Source of the DNA: Spirochaetaceae bacterium
GTDB lineage: Bacteria > Spirochaetota > Spirochaetia > Treponematales > Rectinemataceae
NCBI GenBank assembly: GCA_025355995.1
Contig: JANXYQ010000103.1
Coordinates: 1 to 64,000 of the forward strand
DNA: 64,000 nt
Reading direction: 5' to 3'
The position numbers and the translations under genes are program-made. Of this stretch, positions 42,311-44,700 are shown piece by piece (the first letter of the stretch is position 1; every line of letters starts with the position of its first letter). Under the pieces are notes generated by a model that was not told the DNA's origin, did no database searches, and saw only the letters and a program-made list of their open reading frames with translations.

Positions 42311-43072
42311 TCATAGGCCGGTCGGGACATCGATGAAGAGGGTCTTGAGGCCGGTTTCGCGGGCGAGGCGCTCGGCCACGGCCTTTACGCCCCACACCTC
42401 GGTCGCGTAGTGGCCCGCCGCGAGGAAGGCCATGCCCCCCTCGACGACCGCGTGGTAGACCGAGTGGGAGCTCTCCCCGGTGACGTAGAGGTCGATGCCG
42501 GCCTCGAGGGCCTGGAAGGCCTCCATGGCCGCGCCTCCGGAAACGACGGCCACGCTCGACGCCTTTTCCTTCGAGCCCGGGATGAGGGTCTTCGGACGCG
42601 ATCCGTCGGGGAGGACGCGTTGCGCGATCTCGTCCAGGGAGAGGGCCGGGTCGAGGGAGCCGCGGAAGCCGATGTCGACGCCGTGGTAGGAGCCGAAGGG
42701 CTTAATGTCCTTGAGCCCGATGAGACGGGCGAGGCAGGCGTTGTTGCCGAGCTCCGGGTGCTTGTCCAGGGGGAGGTGGCAGGCGTAGAGGGCCAGGTCG
42801 GCGTCGAGGAGGAGCCGCATGCGCTCCAGCAGCCCGTCCTCGACTCGCGAAGCCCTGCCCCAGAAGAGGCCATGGTGCACGAACAGGGCCTGGGCGCCCG
42901 CCGCCCTAGCCCTGCGGATGGTCTCCGCGCAGGCATCCACCGCGAAGGCCACCAGCTCGAGCGGGGTGCAAGAGCGCCCTACCTGGACCCCATTGAGGGA
43001 ATCGTCGATAGACTTGAGGGCCTCGATCTCGAGGAGGGAGCGGCACCAGAGGTCGAAGTCCTTGAGGTCCAT
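42311..43072 (-). CDS. Nif3-like dinuclear metal centre protein
   Basis: A 253-residue protein of the NIF3/YbgI family. Metal ligands are in FVHHGLFW, YACHLPLDKHPELGNN and, near the C-terminus, FLAAGHYATEVWG. The N-terminus SIDDSLNGVQVG and TGESSHSVYHAV are typical. Often annotated as GTP cyclohydrolase type 2-like; the real reaction is uncertain. The start codon is 15 bases from the U tract of a strong terminator hairpin and no Shine-Dalgarno is evident, which is unusual. Confidence 0.93.
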   Translation of the reverse strand: MDLKDFDLWCRSLLEIEALKSIDDSLNGVQVGRSCTPLELVAFAVDACAETIRRARAAGAQALFVHHGLFWGRASRVEDGLLERMRLLLDADLALYACHLPLDKHPELGNNACLARLIGLKDIKPFGSYHGVDIGFRGSLDPALSLDEIAQRVLPDGSRPKTLIPGSKEKASSVAVVSGGAAMEAFQALEAGIDLYVTGESSHSVYHAVVEGGMAFLAAGHYATEVWGVKAVAERLARETGLKTLFIDVPTGL

Positions 43073-43087
43073 GCGGGCGAGTATATA

Positions 43088-43131
43088 TAAAAAAAGGCCT
43101 TCCGGGGAAGGAGGCAAAACCCCGGAAGGCC
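43088..43131 (-). terminator. Strong intrinsic terminator just upstream of nif3
   Basis: GGCCTTCCGGGG (43096-43107) and CCCCGGAAGGCC (43120-43131) form a perfect 12-base stem with a 12-base loop. On the minus strand it runs into seven or more T (43089-43095). It points toward nif3, with 15 bases left before the start codon. Confidence 0.85.
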
Positions 43132-43184
43132 AAAAGACGAGCCGGAAAGAGCCTAGGAAACCCAGTCCGTCTCGTGAACCTGTT
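43088..43184 (-). ncRNA. Candidate small RNA or attenuator leader
   Basis: A sigma-70-like promoter ends at 43191, predicting a start near 43184. The RNA would hold a stem of nine pairs in ten (43137-43146 with 43166-43175), an inner CTGGG/CCTAG hairpin with a three-base loop, and then the perfect terminator. The total is about 97 nucleotides. It is either an independent small RNA or a cis leader controlling nif3-lspA by attenuation. I checked it against signal recognition particle RNA, tRNA and common riboswitch signatures and saw no match. Confidence 0.45.
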
Positions 43185-43190
43185 AACGAG

Positions 43191-43219
43191 AATATATGCA
43201 CATTATTCGAAAATCACAA
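43191..43219 (-). promoter_or_regulatory. Promoter of the small RNA / nif3 leader
   Basis: On the minus strand TTGTGA (43214-43219) and TATATT (43191-43196) are separated by exactly 17 bases. A seven-base inverted repeat (GCACATT / AATGTGC, 43198-43224) covers the spacer and the -35, and could be an operator. Confidence 0.55.
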
Positions 43220-43300
43220 TGTGCCTTTCCCGAAAACATCGCGCCCGGTGACATTGTTTACGTTCCCTTAATATTCGGGAGGGAATATTTTACTTTTTTT

Positions 43301-44473
43301 TCACATGGCCGCGTCCAGGACCGCCCGAAGCTCGTCGGGAGCGAGGCTTATCGGGTTGCCCCTCATGGAGCTGGCGGCCTGGGCCTTCCCGATCAGCTCC
43401 GGGAAGAGCTCGGGCCGGAGGCCGAAGGAGGCCAGGCCGCGGACGCCGAGAGCGGCGGCGAGCCGGGCGAGGGCGGGGCCGGCGTCCTCCGCCCGAGCGG
43501 CCGGCGAGCCGACGAGGAGGCAGGAGGCCTCCGAATATCGCGCCAAGGCCGGGCTTCCGGGGGACCTCGCCCGAAGGGCCGCCACGTTAGCCGAAACGAC
43601 GGGAGCGAGGAGGGCGGCGCAGGCGGCGCCGTGGGGGACGGGAAGGGCGCCCCCGAGGGGGCCGGCGAGGCCGTGGACCGCCCCGAGGCGCGCGTTGGCC
43701 AGGGCCAGGCCTCCCGAAAGGCTGGCGAAGGCCATGTCCTCGCGGGCCGCGGCGTCCCGCCCGTCGAGGCAGGCCCGCTCGAGCGAGCGGAGGAGCCTCG
43801 GCAGGGCCTCGCGGCAGATCGCGTCGACCATCGGGTTGGGGCTCGAGCAGGCGAAGGGCTCCAGGAGCTGGGTCAAGGCGTCCATCCCGGTCTCTGCCGT
43901 GACCCGCGGCGGCAGGCCGTAGGTCAGCTCGGGATCGACTATCGCGAGGCGGGGCATCATGCCGGGGGAGCGGAGGCTGACCTTGACGCCGTGCTCCCCC
44001 GAGGTCAGGACGGCGTTTCGGGTCGCCTCGGAGCCGGTGCCGGCCGTCGTAGGGATGGCTATGCAGGGGTAGGACGGCACGGCGAGGGGAAGGCCCGCGC
44101 CGATCACCTCGGCGTAATCCAGGGGGTCGCCGGGATTGGCGAGGAGGGCGGCTACGGCCTTCGCGAGATCCAGGGCCGAGCCGCCGCCGAAGCCGACGAC
44201 GATGGCGCAGGACGAGGCCCTGGCCAGGTCGAGGGCGGCTCGGGCGTCCTCGATGCGAGGCTCGTTCCCTATGGAGAAACGGGTGTAGCCAAGGCCCGCG
44301 GCGTCCAGGGAGGCGAAGAGCGGGGCTGCGCGGGAAGGATCGGCGCCGGTCACGACGAGGACCGCCGCTCCGCGACCGGCGCCGGCCGCGAGGGCGACCG
44401 CCGAGGGGCCTGCCTCGGAGAGGGTGCCCGGGCCGAAGAGGATCCGGCCGGGCGCCGCGAACTCGAATTTCAT
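43301..44473 (-). CDS. Iron-containing alcohol dehydrogenase
   Basis: A 390-residue group III alcohol dehydrogenase. NAD binding is in VVGFGGGSALDLAKAVA; PTTAGTGSEATRNAV is the family signature; iron ligands are expected in DALTQLLEPF, LGAVHGLAGPLGG and PHGAACAALL. It converts small alcohols and aldehydes with NAD(P)H. The ATG overlaps the stop of the LsrG-like gene (ATGA), so translation is coupled. Substrate unknown. Confidence 0.93.
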   Translation of the reverse strand: MKFEFAAPGRILFGPGTLSEAGPSAVALAAGAGRGAAVLVVTGADPSRAAPLFASLDAAGLGYTRFSIGNEPRIEDARAALDLARASSCAIVVGFGGGSALDLAKAVAALLANPGDPLDYAEVIGAGLPLAVPSYPCIAIPTTAGTGSEATRNAVLTSGEHGVKVSLRSPGMMPRLAIVDPELTYGLPPRVTAETGMDALTQLLEPFACSSPNPMVDAICREALPRLLRSLERACLDGRDAAAREDMAFASLSGGLALANARLGAVHGLAGPLGGALPVPHGAACAALLAPVVSANVAALRARSPGSPALARYSEASCLLVGSPAARAEDAGPALARLAAALGVRGLASFGLRPELFPELIGKAQAASSMRGNPISLAPDELRAVLDAAM

Positions 44474-44700
44474 CGATTCGGCTCGGCCGGGCCGATCTCG
44501 TCGTAGACCGCGCGGGTCCGCGGCTCGGCCATCAGGGGTTCCGCGAGGTCCTTCCACTTCTGGTAATGGGCGGTCAGCTTGTGCGCGGCCTGGGCCTCGG
44601 CGTCGCGGTAGGCCTCGATCAGGACGAAGCGGCAGGGATCCGACTCGTCCTCGAGAAGCTCGAAGCGCGTTATCCCAGGCTCCCGGCGGCTGTGCCCCAT
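44470..44700 (-). CDS. Antibiotic biosynthesis monooxygenase-fold protein (LsrG-like), start uncertain
   Basis: The first ATG gives 76 residues (EPGITRFELLEDESDP, FVLIEAYRDAEAQAAHKLT, HYQKWKDLAEPLMAEPRT), a dimeric alpha-beta barrel fold like LsrG/YgiN. Family members need one more N-terminal strand, and the open frame upstream supplies it (LIVNIRVAAGASEAFITATV), but without ATG, GTG or TTG. Possible starts are CTG at 44766 or ATA at 44775, the latter seven bases behind GAGGGGG. The true gene therefore probably extends into the end of the diguanylate cyclase gene. It may process a small quinone or sugar-phosphate compound. Confidence 0.7.
   Translation of the reverse strand: MGHSRREPGITRFELLEDESDPCRFVLIEAYRDAEAQAAHKLTAHYQKWKDLAEPLMAEPRTRAVYDEIGPAEPNR

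Follow-up and report, generated by a model that had tools for sequence, protein, structure and literature searches.

The 64,000-nucleotide stretch of spirochaete DNA analyzed here (the window) raises the question of what is made from the interval just upstream of nif3, where the minus strand carries, in this order, a promoter, a 5' hairpin, a terminator, and the nif3 start codon (ATG at 43072). The initial annotation of this locus reported the promoter TTGTGA-17-TATATT with a start near 43184, a stem with nine of ten positions paired, and a perfect 12-base terminator with a T run, all of which we find in the sequence (Table 1). It left two possibilities, a riboswitch-like leader controlling nif3 and lspA or a free small RNA of about 97 nucleotides, with nif3 dependent on read-through.

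Anatomy and conservation of the predicted RNA gene

Table 1. Features at the nif3-linked RNA locus, in window coordinates.
Feature	Position	Strand	Basis and remarks
Sigma-70-type promoter of the RNA gene	43191..43219	-	TTGTGA (43219-43214), 17 nt, TATATT (43196-43191); 9/12 consensus matches
Small RNA gene, about 97 nt	43089..43184	-	Predicted start ~43184, end at the T run; layout also 5' of nif3 in relatives; both ends predicted
5' hairpin	43137..43175	-	RNA fold; relatives have other 5' hairpins
Terminator hairpin, 12 perfect pairs, presumed effector	43096..43131	-	Anatomy, fold, R1 score 64.9 bits, covarying stem in relatives
CCUCCUU in terminator loop	43108..43114	-	Loop-agnostic comparison, permuted-loop control model, 16S tails of relatives
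Terminator T run	43089..43095	-	Sequence
Putative nif3 -10 box, TATACT	43080..43085	-	7 nt before ATG; predicted by consensus
nif3 (DUF34/NIF3)	42311..43072	-	Pfam PF01784, 2.2e-56; lspA is next
Iron-containing alcohol dehydrogenase (ADH) gene, upstream of the RNA gene	43301-44557	-	Pfam PF00465

The 5' hairpin pairs ACGAGACGGA (43175-43166) with TCCGGCTCGT (43146-43137) at 9/10 positions, while the terminator stem GGCCTTCCGGGG/CCCCGGAAGGCC (43131-43120 / 43107-43096) is a perfect 12-bp helix that encloses a 12-nt loop and runs into seven T. For the 111-nt stretch containing them RNAfold predicts -44.2 kcal/mol, whereas shuffled sequences average -29.7 (z = -4.15, reached by 0/200 shuffles). 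Only two strong terminators were found in the whole 64-kb window by a scan that ignores the loop sequence, and that of the RNA gene is by far the stronger. A promoter scan over 1.2 kb returned 2 sites against 0.1 expected. By consensus, the locus has a predicted promoter and a predicted terminator of its own, as an anti-Shine-Dalgarno RNA gene should.

Conservation was followed from nif3 itself, independently of the RNA: with the nif3 protein as query, the locus was found in 91/99 relatives, and the upstream regions of 50 of these 91 loci were scanned for any strong terminator, leaving the loop unconstrained. Strong terminators were found in the family of the window (f1) and in three genomes belonging to one genus of family f4, and their loop is GCCUCCUU; the loops recovered by this search read GCCTCCTT, and the stems differ. 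In G005 the scan paired the stem wrongly, and in G014 it reported the 5' hairpin; the terminators of both carry GCCUCCUU. It also read four loci in the wrong orientation, among them G002 and G011, which have the hairpin. The weak structures of three further f4 genomes (G084, G043, and G057) are unrelated.

Terminator stems across the relatives include GGCCTTCCGGGG, AGGGCCTCACGGGG, GACCCCGCCGGG, GAGCCTTCCGTGG, GAACCCTTCATGG, and others. In an alignment of 25 terminator sequences, 11/13 stem pairs show double changes around a constant loop, and stem covariation is 0.503 compared with 0.218 for shuffled alignments (0/500) and at most 0.149 for slid controls. Because this alignment, which also underlies the R1 model described below, was chosen for its loop (CTCCTT), the unbiased evidence for loop constancy is the loop-agnostic scan together with a loop-permuted model; by both, the anti-Shine-Dalgarno sequence is conserved and unpaired. 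The initial annotation had proposed compensatory changes in the 43137-43175 stem as a check, but strong covariation is found in the terminator stem instead: the 5' hairpin of the window shows no recognizable conservation, even in a relative of the same genus.

Several related genera have a different, conserved 5' hairpin with the loop GGCGAAAC. An invariant CGAAAC occurs in this loop in the type-A RNAs of these genera, and is absent from the RNA of the window; it is possibly a second pairing site or a protein site.

The loop sequence of the terminator, the informative part of the locus, went unmentioned in the initial annotation. It reads GCCUCCUU (UUUUGCCUCCUU) and copies CCUCCUU, the anti-Shine-Dalgarno tail of 16S rRNA. 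The 16S tail GGATCACCTCCTTT was found in 6/30 relatives searched, in several of them at two or more places, as rRNA operons would give; this exact stretch was not seen in the draft genome of the window or in most others, perhaps because rRNA operons are often lost from draft assemblies. We also considered whether the loop is kept as a -35 element of nif3, since the hairpin of the window overlaps with a weak TTCCCC. This was rejected as the cause of conservation because the loop is identical where the hairpin lies farther from nif3 (G001, G005, and G032) or elsewhere in the genome.

Most nif3-linked relatives have TTGACR-17/18-TATATT or TATGTT before the hairpin, better consensus matches than the homologous promoter in the window, which is the weaker one. 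The predicted RNAs of these relatives measure 64-111 nt from start to loop.

Siblings, promoter types, and distribution

R1, a covariance model of the terminator hairpin, matches in 77/99 relatives at E <= 0.05 and in 99/297 Spirochaetia genomes at E <= 5e-4. On these 297 genomes, hits of at least 40 bits number 61 for R1 and 2 for the loop-permuted control (counted by hand); the control keeps the same stems, and many of its hits are the same loci at lower scores. Ten genomes match in a phylum-wide sample (n=198), all of them Spirochaetia. Many free-living spirochaetes have this loop in predicted small RNA genes. An exact-pattern scan of 84,980 species yielded ten contigs: eight from spirochaetes, all true, and two, from Acidobacteria and Gracilibacillus, that we rejected as chance matches, since neither places the motif in the loop of a matching hairpin. 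Essentially no anti-Shine-Dalgarno terminator hits occur in family f3, which belongs to the same order, either among the 99 relatives or among the 297 genomes of the class. This suggests that the element was lost or has strongly diverged there, and, since this family does without it, the hairpin appears to be dispensable.

The genome of the window contains three strong copies: the window locus, C11:66218-66259 (loop UCCUCCUCCUU), and C32:30403-30445 (loop UCCGCCUCCUU). Outside the order, several of the RNAs carry two tandem anti-Shine-Dalgarno hairpins (L172, L176, L178, L184, L186, L187, and L179), as in the alpha-r14 layout discussed below. The sibling types most likely constitute one multi-member family in the class Spirochaetia, whose types may be related by descent.

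Two promoter types precede these terminators. TTGACN-16/18-TAnnnT occurs within 170 nt upstream of 50/82 distinct anti-Shine-Dalgarno terminators (2.4 expected from background), and GTAAC...GTTGT upstream of 14/82 (0.25 expected), nearly always at the single spacing GTAAC-N13-(C/G)GTTGT; the 82 terminators are related by descent, and these counts are not independent events. Siblings of the GTAAC-N13-CGTTGT type have the loop UCCUCCUCCUU or CCUCCUUU and include the C11 copy (G000:C11:66218-66259, minus strand; L190), as well as L056, L057, L009, L062, L165, L172, and L182. The resemblance of this motif to an ECF-type promoter suggests that these members may be controlled by an alternative sigma factor.

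Relation to nif3 and the alcohol dehydrogenase gene

TATACT or a close variant precedes the nif3 ATG in 42/46 genomes, mostly by 6-8 nt and irrespective of an adjacent RNA gene, and several genomes without the RNA gene have TTGTCC or TTGCCC 18 nt before this -10 box. The initial annotation saw no room for a second promoter between terminator and gene, a claim contradicted by the box at 43085-43080. The nif3 mRNA is probably leaderless and made from its own promoter, independently of the RNA gene. If so, the missing Shine-Dalgarno sequence would be explained, since a leaderless mRNA would be expected to lack one.

In many genomes the hairpin lies directly 5' of nif3, which is the position expected of a cis-acting attenuator, or of a terminator-embedded riboswitch, that opens on a signal and lets nif3-lspA be transcribed by read-through. 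Judged from its -10 box, however, nif3 would not be transcribed by read-through only, and relatives lacking the hairpin have this box as well; copies with the same loop stand away from nif3 behind promoters of their own, and what the conserved loop reproduces is the 16S tail. We consider a cis-acting role very unlikely. Alternatively, the hairpin could be merely the terminator, within the 3' untranslated region, of the ADH gene, which has the same orientation and lies 5' of it in the window, G002, and G005 (G001 has a partial match), an arrangement confined to some of the closer relatives of the window. Yet the gene upstream of the RNA varies between relatives, in most of which no ADH gene was found upstream and the hairpin is still there, whereas in G004 an ADH gene adjoins nif3 and the hairpin is missing. 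Moreover, the RNA promoter sits between the ADH gene and the hairpin, and a plain terminator would not hold its loop constant while its stem changes, making this explanation extremely improbable.

The small RNA reading is favored because promoter and terminator are conserved, the upstream genes vary, and sibling copies occur elsewhere. Between the two possibilities left by the initial annotation, these observations speak for the free RNA, while the -10 box of nif3 and the copies elsewhere speak against the leader.

Proposed function and comparison with known systems

We consider it likely that the locus encodes a free trans-acting small RNA, one of a multi-member Spirochaetia family, which would be transcribed from its own promoter and would block ribosome-binding sites with its terminator loop, as its sequence predicts. 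Anatomy and conservation point to a free-standing gene with its own sigma-70-type promoter and intrinsic terminator, in which the terminator hairpin would double as the effector: the 12-nt loop would expose CCUCCUU, identical to the 3' tail of 16S rRNA, and by pairing with the Shine-Dalgarno sequence of an mRNA could block ribosome binding and lower translation. Sharing this seed, the siblings may regulate overlapping targets, each in different conditions and seemingly independently of Hfq; no match to Hfq (PF17209) was found in 30/30 genomes (G000 and 29 relatives) by a search that finds Hfq in E. coli, B. subtilis, and Caulobacter.

Perfect complements of GCCUCCUUC precede 21 ATG codons in the genome of the window, compared with 3 for the reversed pattern. 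Searching for GAAGGAGGC before ATG gave too many sites for a specific target to emerge, 21 in this genome and others in all relatives; the complements are simply strong Shine-Dalgarno sequences. A seed too generic for prediction of single targets, and identical in several siblings, would also suit an RNA whose loop is a sponge for protein or RNA, or acts directly on the ribosome, and the tandem hairpins of some members suit titration equally well. Nevertheless, among RNAs of such layout the best studied target translation initiation regions by pairing (PMC10746234, PMC4132741), and the loop context varies by type (GCCUCCUU, UCCUCCUCCUU, and ACCUCCUUUU), as would be expected of pairing more than of a single protein site; we regard action other than mRNA silencing through the Shine-Dalgarno sequence as unlikely.

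The initial annotation could assign the RNA to no recognized class. This agrees with Rfam 15, which gives 0 matches in the window at the gathering threshold and only sub-threshold ones in related loci, but the architecture does resemble that of known anti-Shine-Dalgarno small RNAs, and relaxed-threshold searches bring up alpha-r14, LhrC, and some unrelated families, all at sub-threshold scores. The alpha-r14 or "cuckoo" RNAs of alphaproteobacteria (RF02344), such as NfeR1 of Sinorhizobium meliloti, are Hfq-independent and have three hairpins with CCUCCUCCC and differing stems (PMC10746234). Like these, the spirochaete RNA is a short hairpin RNA in which an unpaired anti-Shine-Dalgarno motif is constant and the stems vary; unlike them, it comes from a different phylum and carries CCUCCUU or CCUCCUCCUU on one hairpin or two, of which the terminator is always one. 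The window RNA, with GCCUCCUU in one hairpin, has 0 matches to RF02344, and the best-scoring of the siblings (which have one or two hairpins) reaches 24.4 bits (L057) against a threshold of 58.8.

LhrC1-5 of Listeria monocytogenes (RF00616) are multicopy RNAs that bind the Shine-Dalgarno region through redundant CU-rich sites, one of which is located in the terminator loop (PMC4132741). The spirochaete RNAs are likewise multicopy with a terminator-loop site, but the LhrC motif is UCCC, from a Firmicute, and does not copy the 16S tail; the window has 0 matches to RF00616, and the best sibling (L179) scores 31.8 bits against a threshold of 110. RepG of Helicobacter pylori pairs with its target through the C/U-rich loop of its own terminator hairpin (PMC8295292), a use of the terminator loop that we propose here as well. 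RepG, however, recognizes a G-repeat in one mRNA leader, whereas here the seed would be a 16S tail copy shared by several siblings per genome. By Rfam score or motif, the spirochaete RNA belongs to none of alpha-r14, LhrC, and RepG.

On the basis of its sequence and conservation, the locus is a real, conserved, previously unannotated small RNA gene of the anti-Shine-Dalgarno kind. As a set in spirochaetes these RNAs are new, and their mode of action would be a variation on one already known. The literature searched, most subscription journals being outside it, contained no description of anti-Shine-Dalgarno RNAs in spirochaetes, where trans-acting small RNAs appear to have been little studied outside Borrelia. 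More tentatively, and with slightly less than even confidence, we propose that a class without detected Hfq uses a 16S-tail seed in the terminator loop, shared by multi-member small RNAs wired to different sigma factors, for a lineage-specific layer of global translational control with an origin separate from that of its alphaproteobacterial counterpart. The R1 covariance model can be used for annotation of anti-Shine-Dalgarno small RNA genes, and whether the 16S tail, copied by itself, can be a selective regulator becomes directly testable in cultured environmental spirochaetes. If the proposal is correct, this class-wide set, multicopy, sharing one identical seed and using two promoter types with no Hfq detected, would be an independent second case beside that of the alphaproteobacteria.
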